Of a stretch of 64,000 bases of DNA, positions 22,825 through 40,622 are shown piece after piece; positions within the stretch are counted from its first letter, which is position 1; each line of letters starts with the position of its first letter. The DNA lies in assembly GCA_905479095.1 (NCBI GenBank), contig CAJQLD010000023.1, positions 1 to 64,000 on the forward strand, written 5' to 3'. The DNA comes from an uncultured Flavobacteriaceae bacterium (GTDB lineage: Bacteria; Bacteroidota; Bacteroidia; Flavobacteriales; Flavobacteriaceae). A program made the translations under genes and the position numbers. A model generated the notes under the pieces. That model saw only the letters and a program-made list of their open reading frames with translations. It had not been told where the DNA came from and did not search any database.

Positions 22825-24597
22825 ATGAAAAAATATATAATTTACATCGGAATATTAGCTGTTGGATTGTTATTAGGATGGGTTCTTTCTGCAAATTTCT
22901 CCAACGAAGAAACAGCACACAATCACGCTGAAATGACTGAAACAGATCAAATGTGGACCTGCTCGATGCATCCACAAATCATACTTCCTGAAGCAGGCGA
23001 TTGCCCTATTTGCGGAATGGATTTAATTCCTGCCGAAACAACTGCAATGGGTTTAGCCGCAGATCAGTTTAAACTGACCGAAAACGCCATGGCATTGGCC
23101 AACATCCAAACGTCTGTGCTTGGTGAGGGTGTTATGAAAAACAGTGGAGTGAAGTTATCAGGAACCATTGTTGAAAATGAAGAAGCCAATGCCGTTCAAG
23201 TGAGTTATTTCTCTGGGAGGATAGAAAAACTGAATGTCAATTTTACGGGTGAAAAAATACGAAAAGGTCAATTGTTGGCAACGGTGTATTCTCCAGAATT
23301 GTATGCGGCTCAGCAAGAATTAATCACGGCAGTGTCTTTAAAAGAATCCCAGCCAGCATTGTATAACGCAGTGCGAAATAAACTAAAACTATGGAAACTT
23401 TCTGACGCTCAAATCAATCAAATTGAGACCACTAAAAAAGTCAAAGACAACGTGCCAATTTATGCGACATTCTCTGGAACGGTTTCTGAAAAATTAGTAG
23501 CACAAGGCGATTATATCAAACAAGGTCAAGCCTTATTAAAAATAGCCAACCTCAATACGGTTTGGGCAAATTTTGATGTATATGAAAATCAAATTGATCT
23601 ATTTGAAAAAGGACAAGAAATCTCAATAACGACGAATTCGAATCCAAATAAAACGTTCAAAGCGAAGGTTGATTTTATAGATCCTGTTTTAAATGCAAAC
23701 ACAAGAACCGTAAAATTAAGAGCCGTTTTAAACAACAAAAACCATGTGTTTAAACCGGGAATGTTCGTTGAAGGCATCATCAAAAGAACACAAGCTTCCG
23801 CAATTAAAACAATGTTGAAAATCCCAGCGTCTGCTGTGTTGTGGACAGGCGTTCGATCGGTGGTGTATTTAAAACCAAATAGCACCGAGCCCATTTTTGA
23901 AATGAAAGAAATTGTATTAGGAACTAAATTAGGCGATTATTATGAGGTTGTTGAGGGTCTAAACTCCGGAGATGAAATCGTGACAAACGGTGCTTTCACT
24001 GTTGATGCTGCGGCACAATTACAAGGCAAAAAGTCGATGATGAACAAAGCGGGTGGAAAAACAATGACAGGTCACGAAGGACATATGGGAATGATGGAGA
24101 CCATGACTGACATGGACAGCCCTACTCCTATTAATGAACGAATTAAAGCATCAAAAACGTTTCAAAATCAATTAAAAAAAGTGTTTGATAGCTATATTCT
24201 TTTAAAAGATGATTTAGTCAACGATGATTCGGAGGCAGTTATGAAAAACGCCAAAATGGTACTCGCTGATTTAACGGAGGTTGATACGAATCTATTAAAA
24301 AACGAAAATGCACTCACAAATTGGATGTCTTTGGGTAAAGAAATTAAAAATGCTGCTATTTCTATTTCAAATTCAAGAGACATTGCAGTGCAAAGAAGTC
24401 AGTTCAAACCGCTTTCCTCCTACTTAACAAGTGCGATTGAACGTTTTGGGGTAAATGAAAAAATATACCAACAATTTTGCCCTATGGCGGATAACAATAA
24501 GGGAGCGTATTGGCTGAGTAAAAAAGAAAAAGTAGTGAACCCTTATTTTGGACAAGCGATGCTGAAATGTGGCGAAGTAAAACAAGTCATAGAATAA
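22825..24597 (+). CDS. cusB: RND periplasmic adaptor (CusB-like) with N-terminal heavy-metal-binding domain and C-terminal DUF3347
   Basis: WTCSMHPQIILPEAGDCPICGMDL; membrane-fusion core; C-terminal FCPMADNNKGAYWLSKKEKVVNPYFGQAMLKCGEV. Confidence 0.92.
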   Translation: MKKYIIYIGILAVGLLLGWVLSANFSNEETAHNHAEMTETDQMWTCSMHPQIILPEAGDCPICGMDLIPAETTAMGLAADQFKLTENAMALANIQTSVLGEGVMKNSGVKLSGTIVENEEANAVQVSYFSGRIEKLNVNFTGEKIRKGQLLATVYSPELYAAQQELITAVSLKESQPALYNAVRNKLKLWKLSDAQINQIETTKKVKDNVPIYATFSGTVSEKLVAQGDYIKQGQALLKIANLNTVWANFDVYENQIDLFEKGQEISITTNSNPNKTFKAKVDFIDPVLNANTRTVKLRAVLNNKNHVFKPGMFVEGIIKRTQASAIKTMLKIPASAVLWTGVRSVVYLKPNSTEPIFEMKEIVLGTKLGDYYEVVEGLNSGDEIVTNGAFTVDAAAQLQGKKSMMNKAGGKTMTGHEGHMGMMETMTDMDSPTPINERIKASKTFQNQLKKVFDSYILLKDDLVNDDSEAVMKNAKMVLADLTEVDTNLLKNENALTNWMSLGKEIKNAAISISNSRDIAVQRSQFKPLSSYLTSAIERFGVNEKIYQQFCPMADNNKGAYWLSKKEKVVNPYFGQAMLKCGEVKQVIE

Positions 24598-24633
24598 ATT
24601 GAAAACAATTAATAATAATTAAATTTAGACACC

Positions 24634-25044
24634 ATGAGAAAAGTAATTTTAAGTTTGACTGTGATTGCAGCAATCGGATTATTAAGCTGTAAAAAGGCTA
24701 TTAAAAAAGAAACAACTGCTACAAAAGTTGTAACTATTTCAAATCAATCACAAATGACAAACCTTAGTTTTGGAGTCATAGGAAACTGTGGGATGTGTAA
24801 AAAAACCATTGAAAAAGCGGCGAACAAAGTTGAAGGGGTCGCGAACGCAACCTGGGATGTAGACAAAAAGAAAATCGACGTTGCTTTTGATGCAACTAAG
24901 ACCAATGAGATGGAAATTCATAATGCCATTGCAGCGTCCGGCTATGACACCGACAAGGTTGCGAGCGATCTGAATGCATATATTAATTTACCAATGTGTT
25001 GTCAGTATGACCATGATATGACATTAAATAATTCAGAGGAATGA
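24634..25044 (+). CDS. Heavy-metal-associated (HMA) domain lipoprotein
   Basis: Lipobox-like LLSC; GNCGMCKKTIEKAANKVEGV; C-terminal MCCQYDHDM. Confidence 0.88.
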   Translation: MRKVILSLTVIAAIGLLSCKKAIKKETTATKVVTISNQSQMTNLSFGVIGNCGMCKKTIEKAANKVEGVANATWDVDKKKIDVAFDATKTNEMEIHNAIAASGYDTDKVASDLNAYINLPMCCQYDHDMTLNNSEE

Positions 25045-25187: not shown

Positions 25188-26624
25188 TTAAGGAATTACC
25201 TCCCCTTTAAATCCTGTTCGTGTCATTTCTCCCCAATCTTTTTTCTTCCTATTGAAGACAAAATTAAAATTGCCTTTTACGGAAGACCACATAACATAAG
25301 GATGAAAAACTAGAGGCTCAAGTAAAACAATAATGATAAGTTTAAATAGAACTCCTTTTTTTGAATATTGGTGATAAGTAAGTTCTTCACTAAGAATTGA
25401 TAATGCAGAAAACATGACAGCAAATGCATACACAGCTGTTGTTAATAATATAAAATAGTCCCAGTTTACTAAGTTAAAAACAATTAAAAAAATAAAATAA
25501 ACGATTGCTATAAACTCTACTATAGGGGCTAGCCATTCATAAAAAAACCAATACGGATAGCTGATGACTCCTAAAATTCCATAGGACGAATTAAAAAATA
25601 TATTTTTGTGAATTATTAAGGTCTCTATCAAACCTCGCGTCCATCTGTTTCGCTGGTTTCCTAAAATTTTATAATTTTCTGGGACTTCTGTCCAACAAAG
25701 AGGGTCTGGAATATAAACTACTTTATACTTTTCTCCTTTTTCATCCATGTACTTTCTAATTCTTGTCACCAGTTCTAAGTCTTCCCCTACAATTTTATTA
25801 TAGCCTCCAGCAGCAATCATTGTTTTTCTATCAAAGAGTCCCAAAGCTCCTGAAACAAGTAATAATCCATTTAATTTGCTCCATGCCATTCTCCCTAAAA
25901 GAAAAGACCTCATGTACTCTAATACTTGTGATTTAGCTAAAAACTTTTTTGGCAACTTAACCTCTACTAGTTTTCCGTCTTTTATAACACATGAATTGGC
26001 AACCCTAATAACGCCGCCAGCAGCAATTACCTTTTCTTCATTTTCATTCTCGAGAAATGGTTTGACCATTTTTAATAATGCATCTGGTTCAAGGATACAA
26101 TCTACATCGATACAGGCAACTAAATTGTTGTCACTTATGTTGAGTCCTAAATTTAAAGCATCTGCTTTGCCTCCATTTTCTTTATCGATAACTAAGAGTC
26201 TTTTAAAAGCAGGTATTGTGGATCGATAGACAGCTCTAACTTTTTTGGTAGGGAGTTTTTTATTAAATGAATAATTCACTTTTGTAAGTGCATATGCTTC
26301 AATTAATTTACCTAAAGAATCATCTGTACTTCCATCATTAATTAGAAGTACTTCATAATTTACATATTGGATGGAAAGTAATGATCTCACATTTTCTATA
26401 ATAGTCAGGGATTCATTATAGGCTGGTGCTATTATAGATATTGTGGGTGCAAATGGGGATGCTAAAATTTTAGTGTAGTTAACAAAACTATTTTTTTTTA
26501 AGTAGTGATTTGTTTCTATCGCAGAGATCACGGACAGTATAATATAGGATAGTGCTAAAATAGCTCCATATAGTAAAATACCATTGCTTAAAAAATTTAG
26601 GATTAGTTCGTTTTTAAAAAACAT
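25188..26624 (-). CDS. Processive family 2 glycosyltransferase (PgaC/BcsA-like)
   Basis: APAYNE, DGSTDDS, CIDVDCI, GEDLELVTR, QRNRWTRG, flanking TM helices. Confidence 0.9.
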   Translation of the reverse strand: MFFKNELILNFLSNGILLYGAILALSYIILSVISAIETNHYLKKNSFVNYTKILASPFAPTISIIAPAYNESLTIIENVRSLLSIQYVNYEVLLINDGSTDDSLGKLIEAYALTKVNYSFNKKLPTKKVRAVYRSTIPAFKRLLVIDKENGGKADALNLGLNISDNNLVACIDVDCILEPDALLKMVKPFLENENEEKVIAAGGVIRVANSCVIKDGKLVEVKLPKKFLAKSQVLEYMRSFLLGRMAWSKLNGLLLVSGALGLFDRKTMIAAGGYNKIVGEDLELVTRIRKYMDEKGEKYKVVYIPDPLCWTEVPENYKILGNQRNRWTRGLIETLIIHKNIFFNSSYGILGVISYPYWFFYEWLAPIVEFIAIVYFIFLIVFNLVNWDYFILLTTAVYAFAVMFSALSILSEELTYHQYSKKGVLFKLIIIVLLEPLVFHPYVMWSSVKGNFNFVFNRKKKDWGEMTRTGFKGEVIP

Positions 26625-26633
26625 ATTAGATAT

Positions 26634-27710
26634 TTATTTAGATTCTTCTAGGACATGTAATAAAAGAATTTGTTGTTTTGAGGTTAGGTTTGGTTTAATT
26701 TCTTCAAGTTTTTGTTTTCCTCCAATATCTTTAATCGATCTTAATACTTGAATATTTGTTTCGTAATCATAAATTTTTAATTGTTCCGCTAAAAAAGGAC
26801 TATTTTTGGTGTCGGCTATTTTCCCAAATAATTCTATTATTTTTAGTTTTACTGCTTTGGTGCTTTTAAAATAATTTCTTTTGAGGATGGTCAATGAATC
26901 GTTTATTTGGAGATCTCCTAAGACTACTATTGTTTCAATTTTTATTTTTTCATTTCTATGATTTAGAAGCTGTAATAAGTTGTCTTTCAGGGAAATTAAA
27001 TTAAAAACTCTGATAATTTTAAGCACAAATAAGATCACTGAATCGTTTTCAGACCTAAGAAGTATTTCGAGTGGTGGCATCTGATTTCCATTAAAATGTT
27101 GAATTGTTTCTAACAAAAGAAGTTGTTGCCACTCTGATAAATGGTAAGTAAGGGTATTCAGAAAGTTCAGTGCTTTAAACCCTTCAATTTTCACCAAAGC
27201 TAATTGTGCTTCTCTTCTTAAAATTTTATTAGGATGTAAAGTAAGTAAGGCAATTTCATTTGTAACATTTTTTATTTTCATATCCGAAAGCTCTCTAATA
27301 CCTGTAATTTGGACATTCCATTTTGAGCTTTTCATTTTTTTTATGGAATCGTTCACCAACTCAAGTTCCACATAGAGCATTTTAAGTTTATCTGCTATAT
27401 CTCCTGTCATATCTTCATGGATTTTAAAGAGTGTCTTAAGCAGAATAGATTTGTCAAATTTATTTTTAGTAAAGGATTCAAATTTTTTCATGCTAATTAA
27501 TTCTTCATCTTCGTTGGAAAACAAAAAATCAGAAAAAAGAGCTTGAAATTTTTGAACTAACTCATTTTCTTTCAGTTGATTTCTCTCTCTTCTGTATCGA
27601 ACTCTAAATGCAGCTATAAAAACTAATATTGAGATGGTTATAAATACAATTATAATTGTACTTATTATCGTTAAAAAACTTGTCGGACCAATTAGTATAA
27701 GTTGATTCAT
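26634..27710 (-). CDS. Membrane-anchored HEAT-repeat protein
   Basis: N-terminal TM; repeated alpha-helical units (NKILRREAQLALVKIEG, NEKIKIETIVVLGDLQ). Confidence 0.75.
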   Translation of the reverse strand: MNQLILIGPTSFLTIISTIIIVFITISILVFIAAFRVRYRRERNQLKENELVQKFQALFSDFLFSNEDEELISMKKFESFTKNKFDKSILLKTLFKIHEDMTGDIADKLKMLYVELELVNDSIKKMKSSKWNVQITGIRELSDMKIKNVTNEIALLTLHPNKILRREAQLALVKIEGFKALNFLNTLTYHLSEWQQLLLLETIQHFNGNQMPPLEILLRSENDSVILFVLKIIRVFNLISLKDNLLQLLNHRNEKIKIETIVVLGDLQINDSLTILKRNYFKSTKAVKLKIIELFGKIADTKNSPFLAEQLKIYDYETNIQVLRSIKDIGGKQKLEEIKPNLTSKQQILLLHVLEESK

Positions 27711-27775
27711 AGTATTATATATAATTTACATATTCCAACCTGAAATAAGCGATAGAAATTGGTTTTTAATGTGAC

Positions 27776-29128
27776 CTAATTGCCATTTAATAATTGTTCT
27801 TCTATATGTGCTCGTCTTTTTTTTATAAATGGCTTTAAGCCCGGTATAAATGCCCCAGGATCATTAATATCTCCTATGGATTGCTCTATGTTTATATCAA
27901 ATTCTCTATTTGTATACATTTTTAAGGAATCGGTATAGACGCTTTCATTAATAAGTAATTTTAACGATTCAATTTTTTTGTTAAATTTTTTAGGTACAAA
28001 ATAGTCTAACACTTCATTTTCAATAATCTTTCTATAGGATTCTTTAATCTTTATATTTTCTTTTAATAGTTTAGTGACTAACGGATGCCTTTTATCATCT
28101 TCCTTCACATAATAAATATCTAATGCTAGCATTTGTTCCAAAGTAAAATTTGGAGACCATGCACCAAAACTGTAATTGCCATCATAATTTATCCATTCAA
28201 ACTTGGCTGTTTTAGTATTATAGTATAAATAAAAATTATGAGGATAGTATATATTATAAGCATCTACATTAACTAAGACGTTGTTGACGGCCCAAGCTTT
28301 TAAACAGTTTTTAATATTGAAAATGCCTCCCAGTGCTGTTTCGTACATTTCATCGGACCCTTCAAAATTATTAATGATGTTTAGAAAATGTATCAATTGT
28401 TTAGTAGAATTTGTCTTTGCACCACTTTTAATCTTATATTTTCGAGTATAACTAAGACTGTCTTTACCATGCCAATCTAAATAAGCCTGGGGCTCCCCTT
28501 TTATAAGTGCTCCTTTTTTATTTCCAAAGTTCCTTTCTAGAAAATTTTTATCGATCTCCTCTACCATAAGATAAAGTCCCCAATATTGATTATTGATATA
28601 TACTTTGGCATACGCATTTTTTTGAGATGGAACTCCTACATCATGCAAAAAATCTAGATAAAGCTTTTCTCGCATAAATGTTGGGTCTTTAAAATTATTG
28701 TTCAAGTTTATTTCTTCATATCCCTGAAATTTTTGCCCTTTAATAAATTTATCAAAATTAATTTTTAATGATTTCTTGTTGGATGGGTAGTGTTTATAGG
28801 ACGATTCTCCTTTAATTTTAACGCCTACATTATAACTGTATTGACCATCGATTACGACATCTCCTTTTAGATATGTTTTTTTTTCAAACAAGTTCTCTTG
28901 CGTTTTATAATGCACCAAAGAATCCCAATATTCTGATTGCTTAAATTGTATTCTCACCTCATGTACAACAGCATCATTAAAAAGAGAAACTTTATTAAAA
29001 AGCAGTTCTTGGTGGACATCAGCTTGGTTTTTAAAGTTTTCTTTTTTTGAATAAAACCATAAAGAGGTGCTCACAATGCCTACTAAAAGTGGAATACAAA
29101 GGCAAACAACGATGGTTAATTTTTTCAT
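27776..29128 (-). CDS. CotH-family kinase-like protein, membrane-anchored
   Basis: N-terminal TM; GVKIKGESSYKHYPSNKKSLKINF, NNFKDPTFMREKLY, YWGLYLMVEEIDKNFLERNFG, WINYDGNYSFGAW. Confidence 0.88.
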   Translation of the reverse strand: MKKLTIVVCLCIPLLVGIVSTSLWFYSKKENFKNQADVHQELLFNKVSLFNDAVVHEVRIQFKQSEYWDSLVHYKTQENLFEKKTYLKGDVVIDGQYSYNVGVKIKGESSYKHYPSNKKSLKINFDKFIKGQKFQGYEEINLNNNFKDPTFMREKLYLDFLHDVGVPSQKNAYAKVYINNQYWGLYLMVEEIDKNFLERNFGNKKGALIKGEPQAYLDWHGKDSLSYTRKYKIKSGAKTNSTKQLIHFLNIINNFEGSDEMYETALGGIFNIKNCLKAWAVNNVLVNVDAYNIYYPHNFYLYYNTKTAKFEWINYDGNYSFGAWSPNFTLEQMLALDIYYVKEDDKRHPLVTKLLKENIKIKESYRKIIENEVLDYFVPKKFNKKIESLKLLINESVYTDSLKMYTNREFDINIEQSIGDINDPGAFIPGLKPFIKKRRAHIEEQLLNGN

Positions 29129-29310
29129 TAGTATTTATTTTAAAAACTTCAAGAATTCAATAGGATACTTCCCATTTTACGAGTCTTTTTTTTGTAGTTC
29201 CATTTAGGGTTTTAACTTCTACAATTTTAATTCCTATTTTACATTCTAAATCTGAAAAACTCCGCATTTGCTCAAAGCTTTATGTTCTTTAATTTCGTGT
29301 AATTATTTAA

Positions 29311-30567
29311 TTAAAAATTAGCGATGAGTCCTCCAGAAAAACTGTATCTACTTGAGTAATCTCCTAAACTAAATTGAACTTCTTCTAAAAAATACCCGAT
29401 TCTAAAACGCGCTCTAACTAATGGGGAAAGTGTTTTTTGAAACCCAAAACTTCCTTTATAGGATTTTAGTTTATATAAACTCTCGTCATTTACAAGCCTT
29501 CCCCTCTCATCAGGAGAAACACCCATTCCGACTGTTAAAGCAATAAAATTATTTGCATTTTTTAAATAGTTTCTAACAATAAAATTGATCGAAGTTGAAG
29601 TTCCATACGATTTTGGTGTTATGTAAGGACGTAATGAAAACCAATAATTTTTATAGTATTTCCCTATTGAACCTGTTATTATTTTTGGATTAGAAGCCGA
29701 GAATTCTAAATACCGTAATCCAACAGAAAATTCGAAACTTTTTGGCAGCTTTTGATGCAGTTCAACGCCATATCTGCGGGACGGAAAAAGTGAAGAATAG
29801 GAAATCCCAAAATTAAGATAAGCGTAAGTACCACTCCGAATTCGGGGATAGGCATCTATTTCGTATTGCATTCCTTTTTTTTCAAAACGGTTTGCTAAGC
29901 TGGCTCTCCCTATAATCATTCCATATTTTGTTTTTTTAGATAAAGTAACATTGAGCAAGTGTCTTTCGGAAAAAATTTTGTTGAACACATTTAATTCGTA
30001 GGTAACCGATGCAACATTTATTTTTTGCGCGATTTTCAACTTTTTGTTAAGTTCATTAGCACCCTTGTGAGATGGATTTAATTCCAAAAGCTCTAAAAGG
30101 GTTTGAGAGGCCATAGCTGTTCTATCTAATTTATGAAGTACTTTAACTTTTTGAAACAGATATTTCTCGTTAACGGGATACGAATTTAGCGCCGTATTAA
30201 GGTATTCTAGGGCCTCTATATTTTTATCTGACCAAACTTCTACATTAATAATAGCTTCAAGAGCTTCTTTATGCTTTGGCTTTTTTAAGAGTACTTTTTG
30301 TAACTCTGTTCTAGCTGCTTCATAATTTTTTTCCCATGAATAAATTCGTCCTAAATACACTCTTACATCATAATAATTAGGTTTGTCTTCTAATATTGAT
30401 TGACAGACTAGCACTGCCTCCCCCTTCTGCTTCATGGAAACGAGCCTTTTGATATCGTTATAGCTATGTGATTGCTTTTGCGTTTTCTGTGCAAACAGAG
30501 TGCTTGAAATCGCTATTAAGATCAGGGTTAATACATTTCTCCAATTAATTAACCAATGGTATTTCAT
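29311..30567 (-). CDS. TPR plus YaiO-like outer membrane beta-barrel protein
   Basis: Signal peptide, TPR-like repeats (VYLGRIYSWEKNYEAARTELQKVLLKKPKHKEAL), C-terminal amphipathic strands ending SFSGGLIANF. Confidence 0.8.
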   Translation of the reverse strand: MKYHWLINWRNVLTLILIAISSTLFAQKTQKQSHSYNDIKRLVSMKQKGEAVLVCQSILEDKPNYYDVRVYLGRIYSWEKNYEAARTELQKVLLKKPKHKEALEAIINVEVWSDKNIEALEYLNTALNSYPVNEKYLFQKVKVLHKLDRTAMASQTLLELLELNPSHKGANELNKKLKIAQKINVASVTYELNVFNKIFSERHLLNVTLSKKTKYGMIIGRASLANRFEKKGMQYEIDAYPRIRSGTYAYLNFGISYSSLFPSRRYGVELHQKLPKSFEFSVGLRYLEFSASNPKIITGSIGKYYKNYWFSLRPYITPKSYGTSTSINFIVRNYLKNANNFIALTVGMGVSPDERGRLVNDESLYKLKSYKGSFGFQKTLSPLVRARFRIGYFLEEVQFSLGDYSSRYSFSGGLIANF

Positions 30568-30588
30568 TCTTCGTGAGTATTAAATTTG

Positions 30589-30951
30589 TTACATCATTTT
30601 TTTAAGCCTAACGATTAACTCATTTGGGCTAAACGGTTTTGCTATAAAATCATCGGCCCCTAAATTAAATGCTTCTAAAACCATTTCTTCTTGACCGGCC
30701 GAAGAAATTAGAACTATGGGGATTTCATTTTCATATTCATTCTTTATAAACCCAGTGAGTTCTAAACCGCTAACAAAAGGCATCATAATATCTGAAATAA
30801 CTAAATCAGGATGGTCAGATTTAATGATTGATATTGCATCTTTGCCATTAGTTGCTGTCAAAACATGATAGCCTTCCTTTTTTAACCTAAATTCTAAGAG
30901 TGAAAGTAACATTTGGTCATCCTCAACAAGTAATATTTTTTTAGTTTTCAT
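30589..30951 (-). CDS. Single-domain response regulator (REC)
   Basis: ILLVEDDQMLLSLLEFRL, PDLVISDIMMP, GADDFIAKPF; overlaps the kinase gene end. Confidence 0.93.
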   Translation of the reverse strand: MKTKKILLVEDDQMLLSLLEFRLKKEGYHVLTATNGKDAISIIKSDHPDLVISDIMMPFVSGLELTGFIKNEYENEIPIVLISSAGQEEMVLEAFNLGADDFIAKPFSPNELIVRLKKMM

Positions 30952-33286
30952 TTTTTATTTCATTTATTGTATTGTGCAATGAAACAGACATTTGAGTAAA
31001 TATTTTTTCAGATTCAATTAGTAGGTTTAAAATTTTTGAAAGTTCTCTTTCTTCTTTGCTCAAATCGTGAATTAAACTAATTTTATTTTGTAGTGGTTCT
31101 CTTGCAATCATACGAACATTAGAAATGATTTTATGAGATTCTTTATATATAGATTCAAAATCTTTGCTTTTTATTCCTGCTTTGACATTTATTAAAAAGC
31201 TTTCAAAATTGGCTATAAATGTGTTAATTAGAAATATAAAAAGATCATCATCACCCAACGATTCTTTTTTTAAGAATGATAAATCTACGTGATTATCTGT
31301 CTCTTTTTCTTCAGCTTCAACTATATTTTCATCTTCATTATCAGCTTTTTGTTTTGTATGATATATTATTTTATTATAAAGTGATTCTGGATTGAATGGT
31401 TTTGATATATAATCATTCATTCCCGTTTTTAGTGATTTCTCCTCATCGTTAGAAGACGCATCAGCAGTCATCGCAATAATTGGGATTTCACAAATAGGTG
31501 GCTTTAGCTTTCGTATCCTTTTTGTTGTTTCAAAACCATCCATTTCTGGCATTTGAATATCCATTAATATTAAGTCATATATCGAATTTTCTATTTTTTC
31601 TAATGCGATGACTCCATTATCAGCAATATCAATATTACAATTCCAAGATTTCATTCGACTTTTTGCCAATGCCTGATTCATGAGATTATCTTCAACTAAT
31701 AATATTTTCAAGTGTTTAAGACTAAAAACTTTAGGTTTATTATCCTCTTGTCCTAATAGTGAATTACGATCACCACTAACTTGTTCTTGTATGCATTTAT
31801 TAAAGGGAATTGTAATTGTAAATGTGGTTCCTTTTCCTAGTGTGCTATCTAAATGTATTTCACCTTTCCTTTGATCAACGATCATTTTCACAATAGCAAG
31901 TCCTAATCCAGACCCACCGTATTTACGGGTCGTATCGCTTCTTGCTTGCGTAAAACGTTCAAATATAATTTTTTGAGCTTTTTCACTCATTCCAATACCC
32001 GTATCCTCAATTTTAAATATAATATTAATCGAATCATCATTTTCTATCTTATGTTTAACATACATATTTACTTCTCCCTCTTCTGTGAATTTAACAGAAT
32101 TATTAATAAGATTAAGAAGGACTTGATTTAGTCTAGTAGGATCTCCATTGATATACCTAGGACATTTACTGTCAATAAATAGAGACAATTCAATGCCTTT
32201 CTTTTTGGCTTTATCCTCTATCATTTTAATTACCTGATCAATTAATTCTATAAGATCAAAATCGATACTTTCAAATATGAGCTTTCCGGATTCTAATTTT
32301 GAGGAGTCAAGGATGTCATTAGTTAATACCAAAAGAGTACTGCTCGATTTTTTAATTCGACCTAAAAATTCATTCTGATCAGGATTTAGTTTGGTTTCTA
32401 GTAAAAGGTCAGTAAAACCAATAATACTATTCATTGGTGTTCTTATTTCATGGCTCATGTTTCTTAAAAACTCCTCTTTGATTTTTACTGAGTTTTCTGC
32501 TATTTTTTTCGCTGCGATTAAATCAGCTTCAACTTTTTTCTTTTCTGTTATATCTGCCCGAATTGCGATGTATTGGATCGGTTTTCCTTTATCATTAAAA
32601 AACGGAACAATGGTCGTATCTACCCAGTAATAACTACCGTCTTTTGCTGAATTTTTAACCTCTCCCTTCCATATCTCACCTGACGCAATAGTTTGCCATA
32701 AATTTTTTATAAATTCCTTGGGATGGTACCCTGAATTAATAATCTTATGATCTTTTCCAATCAATTCTTCTCTACTAAATTTTGAGATTTGACAAAATTT
32801 ATCATTAACGTATGTAATTTTCCCTTTTTGATTTGTGATCGCGACAATAGCAGATTCATCTAAGGCCATTTTTATATTCTCTATCTCTTTTACAAGTATA
32901 TTTTCTTCTGTATGGTCTTTGCCTATAGCTAAAAGTGTAACGTCTTGTTCAATATAGACCATTTTCCAAGAAATAGTTTTGTGTAGCTTATCCCGATTAA
33001 AATATTTAGAATCAAATGATATCTCTTCATTGTCTTTTGAGAGCGATGCTATTTTTTTGAGGACTTCTACGGTTTCTTTTGGATCTAAAAAATCAAAAAA
33101 TGTTTTTAATAACAGGTTCGATTCTAAATATCCTGACATTTCAATAAATGAGTTATTTACATATTTAAAATGACCATTAATATCTATAATACAAATGACA
33201 TCAGATGATGAATTTAAAAAAGTCTCTAAAGTATTTAGGTTATTCAGGTTTTTAACAATTAATTTGGTTTGGTTCAGTATTTTCAA
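30941..33286 (-). CDS. Hybrid sensor histidine kinase (PAS-PAS-HisKA-HATPase-REC-HPt)
   Basis: PAS repeats, FLRNMSHEIRTPMNSIIGF, GSGLGLAIVK, ILLVEDNLMNQ...LMDIQMPEMDG, C-terminal SHKIISNVRMI HPt-like. Confidence 0.92.
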   Translation of the reverse strand: MKILNQTKLIVKNLNNLNTLETFLNSSSDVICIIDINGHFKYVNNSFIEMSGYLESNLLLKTFFDFLDPKETVEVLKKIASLSKDNEEISFDSKYFNRDKLHKTISWKMVYIEQDVTLLAIGKDHTEENILVKEIENIKMALDESAIVAITNQKGKITYVNDKFCQISKFSREELIGKDHKIINSGYHPKEFIKNLWQTIASGEIWKGEVKNSAKDGSYYWVDTTIVPFFNDKGKPIQYIAIRADITEKKKVEADLIAAKKIAENSVKIKEEFLRNMSHEIRTPMNSIIGFTDLLLETKLNPDQNEFLGRIKKSSSTLLVLTNDILDSSKLESGKLIFESIDFDLIELIDQVIKMIEDKAKKKGIELSLFIDSKCPRYINGDPTRLNQVLLNLINNSVKFTEEGEVNMYVKHKIENDDSINIIFKIEDTGIGMSEKAQKIIFERFTQARSDTTRKYGGSGLGLAIVKMIVDQRKGEIHLDSTLGKGTTFTITIPFNKCIQEQVSGDRNSLLGQEDNKPKVFSLKHLKILLVEDNLMNQALAKSRMKSWNCNIDIADNGVIALEKIENSIYDLILMDIQMPEMDGFETTKRIRKLKPPICEIPIIAMTADASSNDEEKSLKTGMNDYISKPFNPESLYNKIIYHTKQKADNEDENIVEAEEKETDNHVDLSFLKKESLGDDDLFIFLINTFIANFESFLINVKAGIKSKDFESIYKESHKIISNVRMIAREPLQNKISLIHDLSKEERELSKILNLLIESEKIFTQMSVSLHNTINEIKNEN

Positions 33287-37967: not shown

Positions 37968-40622
37968 TTATTTGATAATTAACCTTTGAGTTGTAAATTG
38001 CTTTTTAGTATCATCTAAAATATTCACTAGATATATTCCTGGTGAAATACTAGAAATATCTAAAGTAACACTCTTTAAATTTGTTTGAAATTTATGATTC
38101 TTATTCAAAACCATTTTACCTTCTAAACTAAACATTTGTATCACAACTTGTGAGTTCTCAAACCCTCTCAACTTTAAATTAACAAAGTTTTTAGCTGGAT
38201 TAGGAAAAATAACAAGGGCCTCAACGTCTTTGGTTTTGTCCACTTCTAAAGTTGGATCAATGATCGTAAAATCTAATATTCCAGAGCCCCAAGATCCAAA
38301 TCTAACCGTTGAGATGGATTCAATATAATCTACATCCATAGCATTAAAAAACCCAATCCCTTCAGCAATTGAATACCATGTTAAATCGTCAACTACAAAA
38401 ACATAAGGACCTATATCTGTACCTGCAAAAATATATTTGTTGTCAGGAGTCGCAATCATTCCTCCTGTTTGGGCGTCAGATCCTGACGGAAAATCACCTG
38501 TTATATCTATCCAACTCGTACCTCCGTCTTTTGAAAGAATGGAGCCAATGTTATTATTACTTGGGCCACAGAATAATATCCAGTCATCATTATTTGGTAA
38601 TACGACGCCACTTCCAATGTCTCCATTTCCCCAGCCTCCATTAGTTTGAGAAAAAGGAGTTGATATTGCGTCTCCAAAAGTATCTCCTCTGTCATTTGAT
38701 ATAAAAACGTTTCCATCCTGAAGCATGAAAAGTTTATTAGGATTAGTCCATGCTTGTGCAAGTGCAGCGACTTGATTTGTTCCTTTATCAATAGTATGTG
38801 CCGTTAAATTAGTTCCATCAACTGTAGCTCTATCCAAACGTTTTTTTAGAAGCCACATTCTTTTATCTGGTTGGTCATGATCTATATAAGTTTGAACCCA
38901 TCCCATTTCGGTGTCATTAACAAGATCTATTCGAGTAGCAGAGTTAAAACCTCTGTTTATTTGACCAACAGATTTAAAACTATTGTCGCTATTGTAGGCT
39001 CTAACAGGCGCATAAACATTATTTCCTCGTCTATCCCATTTCCAAACATAGTCTCCATCATAACTGTCTAGTGGGGGACCATCGCCACCAATGCTCTGAT
39101 AAAAGTCTAATTGATCTCCGCTAGTTCCAGGGATAATACTTTGACTTCCCTGATCTTGAGTACTGAAATTAATATGATCCGGATCATTTTTACCTGTAAA
39201 AACATTTTCTCTGTATACGAGAGGGTTAATAGTGTTTATAACATTTAGATTAATATAATGTGCATTTGCATAATCAGAATTGTTAAAACTAATCCCTGAT
39301 TCAGGAAAATCGGACCATTCTTTATAAGAAATAAACAAACCACCATCAGAGCATCTAACTGAAAATAATTCATCTGAAGCATTGTAAAAGAATTGTGAAG
39401 CTTGAAAATCTGGATGATAATTAAATCGAATGCGATTATAATAATCTTGCGCCTCTAAGTTTGTGCCATTTTGATAACATCCCCAGCAATTGGCACTCGC
39501 TTCAGTTGTGTTCAATCCATCAAGGGATATTATAGGATTTGCGTAGCCTGCAATAGAAATAGATGGGTTTTCTGGATGAACACCAAGAAACATACCAGCA
39601 TCCATTTTGTCTGTTGGATTACCATACCAACTTCCAGCTGGCGTTTTTTGTGTCCAACTGACACCTTCATCTGTTGAAACCCAATACTCACCAAACTCAG
39701 TTGCATACAAAAGACGAGCATCTCCTGAGATACTAAATGCTTTATTGCCGTGCGAGCTAGTGAGATAGGATCCTTTTAAATCGAATTCCGCTAAACTATT
39801 TAATTTGTAAAAAGAACCTTCTCTTGCTAAATAGACTGATGCTGCTGATTTATGTTTGTTATATCTAGGGGTATATAAAAAAGAATTTTTAGTAGTATCA
39901 AAAGTTTTTAGTGTATTAAAGCTGACTCCAAAATCTGTGGAAACGAAAATCGATGTATTGTCTGTAACATATATGGTGTGATCTTCTTGTCTATTTATAA
40001 TAGAACTCGTATTTGCTTCTGACAAGCCGGTAGATTTTGTCCAAGTTTCTCCTTCATCGTCTGAATAATATAACGGACCATTTTCTATATGAGCGACCAA
40101 TCGGGTCGTATTATCAGAGATGGTAAATGCAAATAAATTTTGATATCTATTTGGCCAATTGGCTGTTAATAATTCAAAATCATCTCCACCTGTTTGTGTT
40201 GTTTGGTTATAAATCGTTCCTTTAAAAATATATGATTTTGAGTTATATTCACCAGCGTAATGGTTAAGTGACACGCCGTAAATAATATCGGTACCATCTA
40301 GCATTTCAGCAAATCTAAAGGCGCCAGGCATATTTCTTGGACCTCTATTTGTCCAATCTCCTGTTAGTGCACCATCAGCGTACGTTGTGTTTTGAGCAGA
40401 TTTAGCATATCTTTTTTTTGTGAAATTATCAGATTTTTCAGTTAATGTAGCTAATATTTGTTGATGACGTGCCGCTTGCTCGGGAGTCCAAATCGCTTTT
40501 TTATCTGGGTTATGCTCCTCTTTTTCCTGATTCAATGGCAGTTTGGAATTATCAAAATTGCACGAAATAAATAAGCTGGATAAGGTTAATAAGAATACTA
40601 ACGAAGTTTGAAATTTTTTCAT
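37968..40622 (-). CDS. Asp-box/BNR-repeat (sortilin/exo-sialidase-like propeller) protein with T9SS type A C-terminal sorting domain
   Basis: Asp boxes SDDEGETW, STDEGVSW, SNDRGDTF, SKDGGTSW; C-term FPNPAKNFVNLKL...GIYLVNILDD...QRLIIK; N-terminal LFISC lipobox-like. Confidence 0.85.
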   Translation of the reverse strand: MKKFQTSLVFLLTLSSLFISCNFDNSKLPLNQEKEEHNPDKKAIWTPEQAARHQQILATLTEKSDNFTKKRYAKSAQNTTYADGALTGDWTNRGPRNMPGAFRFAEMLDGTDIIYGVSLNHYAGEYNSKSYIFKGTIYNQTTQTGGDDFELLTANWPNRYQNLFAFTISDNTTRLVAHIENGPLYYSDDEGETWTKSTGLSEANTSSIINRQEDHTIYVTDNTSIFVSTDFGVSFNTLKTFDTTKNSFLYTPRYNKHKSAASVYLAREGSFYKLNSLAEFDLKGSYLTSSHGNKAFSISGDARLLYATEFGEYWVSTDEGVSWTQKTPAGSWYGNPTDKMDAGMFLGVHPENPSISIAGYANPIISLDGLNTTEASANCWGCYQNGTNLEAQDYYNRIRFNYHPDFQASQFFYNASDELFSVRCSDGGLFISYKEWSDFPESGISFNNSDYANAHYINLNVINTINPLVYRENVFTGKNDPDHINFSTQDQGSQSIIPGTSGDQLDFYQSIGGDGPPLDSYDGDYVWKWDRRGNNVYAPVRAYNSDNSFKSVGQINRGFNSATRIDLVNDTEMGWVQTYIDHDQPDKRMWLLKKRLDRATVDGTNLTAHTIDKGTNQVAALAQAWTNPNKLFMLQDGNVFISNDRGDTFGDAISTPFSQTNGGWGNGDIGSGVVLPNNDDWILFCGPSNNNIGSILSKDGGTSWIDITGDFPSGSDAQTGGMIATPDNKYIFAGTDIGPYVFVVDDLTWYSIAEGIGFFNAMDVDYIESISTVRFGSWGSGILDFTIIDPTLEVDKTKDVEALVIFPNPAKNFVNLKLRGFENSQVVIQMFSLEGKMVLNKNHKFQTNLKSVTLDISSISPGIYLVNILDDTKKQFTTQRLIIK

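Follow-up and report, generated by a model that had tools for sequence, protein, structure and literature searches.

The window analysed here is a 64,000-nucleotide stretch of DNA from an uncultured Flavobacteriaceae bacterium (contig CAJQLD010000023.1, positions 1 to 64,000). It contains a cluster of six genes (25188–33286) that is real, conserved, and more widely distributed than the first-pass annotation of the window had supposed. We interpret this cluster as probably a less common form of a synthase-dependent exopolysaccharide system that spans Bacteroidota. Its core comprises a stand-alone REC protein, a HEAT-repeat protein, and a family 2 glycosyltransferase (GT2), together with a YaiO-type exporter, and a CotH-family kinase would act as the modifier. 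The interpretation draws on gene content, conserved gene order, exclusive positional replacement, a single CotH clade, intact catalytic aspartates, a kinase fold, and predicted protein topology.

All six open reading frames are on the minus strand, where the first-pass annotation had placed them, and read 5' to 3' as hybrid histidine kinase (HHK), REC, YaiO, CotH, HEAT, and GT2. Pfam searches bore out the annotated domains of all six genes, except for the HPt domain of the kinase, which had no match, just a degenerate 'ESHKIISN' stretch read by eye. The description of the genes as mostly closely spaced is fair for most gaps (an 11-base overlap of HHK and REC, then 21 bases between REC and YaiO, 65 between CotH and HEAT, and 9 between HEAT and GT2) but not for the 182 bases that separate YaiO from CotH. 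Scans for promoters and terminators gave signals at or below chance.

We profiled the distribution of the core using the HEAT protein as a marker and detected a homologue in 44 of 151 genomes from the same family and 66 of 298 from the order. Across 40 regions from the family, the operon was almost always REC-HEAT-GT2, with or without a leading HHK, followed in most by a protein of ~800 amino acids and YaiO. A GT2 scan of the whole collection returned 80 named loci from Flavobacterium, Lutibacter, Polaribacter, Pedobacter, Mucilaginibacter, Chitinophaga, Pontibacter, and Bacteroidales metagenome-assembled genomes; nearly all had HEAT-GT2 and most had REC. A GT2 orthologue was present in 47 of 325 genomes of a class-wide sample. 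HEAT was found near the GT2 at 182 of 184 loci, REC at 156, and YaiO at 152, in samples that are statistically non-independent and include loci truncated at contig ends. The core is conserved in most of these loci and spans Flavobacteriia, Sphingobacteriia, Chitinophagia, Cytophagia, and Bacteroidales metagenome-assembled genomes. Co-occurrence of the cluster genes exceeds chance by far: the core recurs in nearly all 184 loci and in many families, and the CotH-containing order also occurs in other families. A peptide-pattern scan with the HEAT protein found no match in the contigs of close relatives, because the protein is too diverged for such patterns. The earlier interpretation of the cluster is partly supported overall; its claim of a synthase-plus-exporter cluster under two-component control is supported, this unit being conserved in several families.

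The ~800-residue partner, a membrane protein, contains a PF00884 domain, behind which the Flavobacteriaceae examples that were tested have TPRs. LtaS of Bacillus and Listeria is among its PDB matches (LtaS2, 2w8d, at 3e-10), and by family it is putatively LtaS-like. An LtaS-like gene was detected at 108 of the 184 GT2 loci, and 18 loci encode a single polypeptide that fuses the GT2 with the LtaS-like domain; such fusions are good evidence for joint action of synthase and modifier. Two HEAT-GT2-YaiO sets lie side by side in some Flavobacterium genomes (L148:7237-17946, L204, and L207), with an LtaS-like gene only in the first set, which suggests duplication and division of labour.

CotH occurs in the operon at seven of the 184 loci, including the window, where it either lies between YaiO and HEAT or immediately precedes HEAT. 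The six other genomes come from four other families (f107, f110, f93, and f120) and share all or most of the window's order. Three loci from one family (L319, L324, and L325) read HHK-REC-YaiO-CotH-HEAT-GT2, as in the window; L311 reads REC-YaiO-CotH-HEAT-GT2, L317 reads YaiO-CotH-HEAT-GT2, and L315 reads CotH-HEAT-GT2 with REC and YaiO nearby on the opposite strand. In an eighth case (G1283), the contig is broken within the HEAT gene, with the GT2 on one fragment and CotH ending another. At L261, the order is REC-YaiO-LtaS-HEAT-GT2, with the LtaS-like gene exactly at the CotH position. CotH and an LtaS-like gene were found together at none of the 184 loci (hypergeometric P = 0.0017 over loci, and ~0.03 when only four independent lineages are counted). 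We had believed CotH to be unique to the window after the first 40, 20, and 80 loci, and the class-wide sample overturned this. The first-pass view of CotH as a partner is right in that CotH belongs to a conserved cluster, but the usual partner is LtaS-like and CotH is a minority alternative.

The in-cluster CotH proteins are 39–45% identical to the window CotH over the full domain, compared with ~36% or less for other full-length CotH proteins, and they form a single clade (bootstrap 100, SH-aLRT 99). In a class-wide profile search, clade matches (at least 646 bits) were limited to the CotH-variant loci and G1283, with the next at ~420 bits in longer frames; because seven of these sequences went into the profile, part of the score gap is built in. 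On the GT2 tree, the GT2 partners of these proteins are spread over about four positions, and an approximately unbiased test only marginally rejected keeping the CotH-paired GT2s together (p = 0.047). Several origins of the pairing are suggested, either by movement of CotH between GT2 lineages or by repeated loss and replacement. We set aside an earlier test of this kind (p = 1e-5) since it had forced out L314, a locus on a contig that breaks in the HEAT gene beside the GT2. The 182-base gap and the lack of CotH in most homologous clusters could indicate that CotH is a chance neighbour outside the machine. However, six other genomes from four families have CotH in the same position and gene order, and all these CotH proteins belong to one clade; this makes a chance neighbour very improbable, and we strongly disfavour it.

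Other CotH proteins were rejected as counterparts. Free-standing CotH proteins of the same family were considered as orthologues, and none was beside a GT2 in 20 regions. Two of them (L103:6337-9090 and L114:7995-10780) belong to a conserved set of CotH, DUF2490 (outer-membrane-like), and DUF4956, which recalls the CotH, polyphosphate polymerase, and DUF4956 set beside Gram-positive pel. CotH proteins of the phylum at 36% identity were rejected as partners, having secretion tails and, in place of a GT2, neighbours such as arylsulfotransferase-like (ASST-like) genes and further secreted genes. Those in L186, L188, and L189 have sorting-tail-like C-termini and adjoin proteins with type IX secretion system (T9SS) tails, with ASST-like genes in L188 and L189. 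ASST enzymes represent another extracytoplasmic transfer chemistry.

The CotH gene of the window (27776–29128, minus strand), in the slot of the LtaS-like gene, encodes a protein with an N-terminal export or anchor segment. It belongs to the CotH family by Pfam (PF08757, 4e-58, 197.9 bits against a threshold of 23.8) and matches PDB entry 5jd9 at 5e-23. In an alignment with B. cereus CotH, residues D289 and D316 fall where B. subtilis CotH has D228 and D251. The two residues are 23 positions apart in the B. cereus protein, the same spacing as between D228 and D251, and D289 and D316 are invariant in all seven in-cluster CotH proteins. Mutation of D228 or D251 inactivates the B. subtilis kinase (PMC7821199). 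We modelled the window protein with AlphaFold2 (alignment of seven sequences, mean pLDDT 70.5), and the best fold match was 5jda, the CotH-Mg-AMP structure (TM-score 0.81 by target length, E 2e-18). The N-termini of the in-cluster CotH proteins resemble export signals, with lipoboxes in L311 and L317, and CotH is predicted to be exported. These results agree with the annotated exported kinase, its catalytic residues being intact and its location a sequence-based prediction.

CotH would most likely phosphorylate the polymer or its export partners. We tentatively propose, as a possibility, that a periplasmic CotH phosphorylates the exported polysaccharide directly, having been exchanged in evolution with a non-homologous LtaS-like phospho-transferase in a system that uses a REC-HEAT switch without cyclic di-GMP (c-di-GMP). 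It seems rather unlikely that the target of CotH is instead a protein of the machine, either the YaiO TPR domain or some other envelope protein, in a regulatory step that leaves the glycan unphosphorylated. Characterised CotH does act on proteins, the Ser-rich coat proteins CotB and CotG (PMC7821199), and a regulatory kinase role was proposed for CotH beside Gram-positive pel (PMC7112168). However, CotH here sits in the slot of an LtaS-like transferase, and the known relatives of that enzyme act on polymers or lipids rather than on proteins. A structural or binding role for CotH, or another transfer such as AMPylation, would accord with the many extracytoplasmic CotH proteins of the phylum that have secretion tails (L185–L190) and with the difficulty of supplying a donor in the periplasm. 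We consider this improbable given the two invariant catalytic aspartates and the fold match to a Mg/AMP-bound kinase.

The GT2 (25188–26624, minus strand; Pfam E-value 6e-20) has the motifs of a processive-type synthase: D97 (NDGS), D173-x-D175, GED at 280–282, and QRNRW at 324–328. The key residues of these D, DxD, ED, and QxxRW motifs are invariant across 13 homologues. Predicted hydrophobic segments are located at both ends (7–36, 368–386, 392–410, and 424–442), in line with the annotated flanking transmembrane helices. The best equivalog model was PgaC_IcaA, at 120.7 bits against a cut-off of 422.3, and CelA scored 37 against 699. Membership in PgaABCD was rejected, as the PgaC, PgaA, and other equivalog models were far below their cut-offs and no PgaB- or PgaD-type domain was found in the six genes or their immediate neighbours, an absence that had been annotated correctly. 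The curated scores also speak against a cellulose (Bcs) system, and neither PilZ nor BcsB was matched in the cluster. The six genes had no match to GGDEF either, as annotated.

The YaiO-family outer-membrane protein (29311–30567, minus strand) matched YaiO (PF19413, 2e-61, 207 bits against 23.9) plus TPRs, and exceeded the threshold of TIGR04390, the YaiO-family barrel model (152.9 against 32 bits). The PgaA exporter equivalog scored 18.1 against 366.7 bits. The structure model (pLDDT 86.8, pTM 0.63) has TPR-type helices at the N-terminus followed by a predicted barrel of 14 strands. BcsC, PelBC, and PgaA are among its best fold matches in the PDB, at modest overall TM-scores of 0.3–0.5. The modelled architecture is consistent with the TPR/barrel exporters of synthase-dependent systems. 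The annotated PgaA-type exporter is supported by these fold matches, but not by the strand number or the Pga model scores. The module could alternatively make a short envelope-anchored glycan or teichoic-acid-like polymer rather than free exopolysaccharide. The LtaS-like partner and the GT2 fusions resemble machinery for phosphate-containing polymers, and the barrel is smaller than the PgaA type. We consider an anchored product unlikely, as the QRNRW motif and flanking transmembrane segments suit a processive synthase and the TPR-barrel resembles exporters.

Two of the remaining genes encode signalling proteins. The HHK (30941–33286, minus strand, TTG start) has two PAS domains followed by HisKA, HATPase_c, and REC in Pfam, with H279 in SHEIR and LMDIQMP in the REC part, and no transmembrane segment was predicted. 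The stand-alone REC protein (30589–30951, minus strand; Response_reg, 8e-31) has the phospho-acceptor D54 and lacks an output domain. The HEAT-repeat protein (26634–27710, minus strand; HEAT_2, 1e-10) has an N-terminal transmembrane segment at residues 15–33. The protein is a hallmark of the family. Such a segment was present in all 137 homologues of 300–480 amino acids, and in 133 of these the positive charge after the segment exceeds that before it. By the positive-inside rule, the HEAT domain is therefore predicted to face the cytosol, on the same side as the GT2 catalytic domain and REC. The idea that it takes the place of a PgaB/PgaD-type partner does not hold on this prediction, which makes the HEAT domain cytosolic and not periplasmic. 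In one Flavobacteriaceae group (L038, L045, L048, and others), the HEAT protein has a long extension, reaching 700–1000 amino acids in total, and in L045 further repeat-like stretches lie beyond an acidic linker.

From these data we infer a polysaccharide product, control through REC, HEAT, and GT2, and the substrate and chemistry of CotH. The cytosolic HHK would phosphorylate the lone REC, which would bind the inner-membrane-anchored HEAT protein; we propose that REC acts on the GT2 through HEAT because the HEAT domain is predicted to be cytosolic. HEAT would then turn the GT2 on or off, a protein-protein control replacing c-di-GMP and PilZ. The GT2 would polymerise the glycan and pass it through the inner membrane, and modification of the chain by an exported enzyme would take place in the periplasm. 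Most relatives have an LtaS-like enzyme for this, which by family would be a phosphoglycerol- or phosphoethanolamine-type transferase, whereas here CotH may place phosphate or a different phospho-group on the glycan or on an export partner. The TPR-barrel YaiO protein would export the glycan. The exchange suggests that exported glycans of one kind receive phosphate groups from two unrelated enzymes.

Several points weigh against this interpretation. The periplasm is generally regarded as poor in ATP, and an ATP-dependent kinase there would need a donor. LtaS-type enzymes use lipid donors and so escape this problem, whereas CotH would not. About one-third of the GT2 loci have neither an LtaS-like gene nor CotH nearby, so modification is either non-essential or encoded elsewhere. 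The GT2 fits none of the curated equivalog models. The cluster is absent from 17 other sampled genomes of the window's genus, several of them incomplete; this absence and the low G+C of the cluster (0.303, compared with 0.35–0.36 in the flanks) fit gain by horizontal transfer. Finally, the 14 predicted strands of the YaiO barrel differ from the 16 reported for NfrA (PMC8669472).

The cluster resembles several known systems in part. It would operate in the manner of a synthase-dependent system such as Pga or NfrA/NfrB, with a different control and a different modifier. It shares with PgaABCD a processive GT2 with the same motifs and transmembrane segments and a TPR and outer-membrane barrel exporter, but lacks PgaB and PgaD and has HEAT, REC, and CotH or LtaS-like partners and a 14-strand predicted barrel. 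For the E. coli YaiO/YaiP pair, the likeness is the YaiO barrel family (PF19413) and a neighbouring GT2; no HEAT, REC, or CotH is known there. No description of YaiO/YaiP was found in the open-licence literature. The NfrA/NfrB system for NGR glycan in E. coli also combines a GT2 synthase, a TPR-barrel exporter, and dedicated control. In NfrB, an MshEN-like domain mediates control by c-di-GMP, whereas we found a lone REC and HEAT and no c-di-GMP domain; the available portions of those reports do not mention HEAT, CotH, or LtaS-like partners (PMC8669472, PMC8669469). Bacillus CotH (5JD9/5JDA) shares the fold and catalytic aspartate pair but is a spore-coat protein kinase, whereas the window CotH is predicted to be exported and clusters with a glycan synthase.

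CotH next to polysaccharide genes has been reported twice, in unrelated clusters (PMC7112168, PMC8250860). In the Gram-positive Pel accessory genes, CotH is linked to a polysaccharide operon with another synthase and exporter, and comes with a polyphosphate polymerase gene and DUF4956 (PMC7112168); both are absent here, no polyphosphate polymerase gene being seen at the window's cluster. The Zetaproteobacteria stalk cluster Sfz6 is a candidate exopolysaccharide cluster with a CotH domain and a GT2, but its SH3-CotH protein has 1,415–2,270 amino acids and is accessory according to its authors, and its synthase is BcsB-like and c-di-GMP-linked (PMC8250860). We found no description of the REC-HEAT-GT2-YaiO system or of the LtaS/CotH exchange in the open-licence literature. 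The system appears to be common yet undescribed in Bacteroidota, culturable Flavobacterium, Pedobacter, and Chitinophaga relatives among them, and seemingly uses a REC-HEAT switch instead of c-di-GMP. The pairing of the same synthase with an LtaS-like enzyme at some loci and a CotH kinase at others is a natural experiment. It makes testable the targets of extracytoplasmic CotH kinases outside spores, and how Gram-negative exopolysaccharides gain phosphate-type charges.

Elsewhere in the window, a heavy-metal efflux locus convergent to the cluster (22825–25044) encodes a CusB-like HlyD periplasmic adaptor and a small HMA-domain protein. The region 37968–40622 encodes a T9SS-secreted protein of 884 amino acids with a BNR/sortilin-like propeller.

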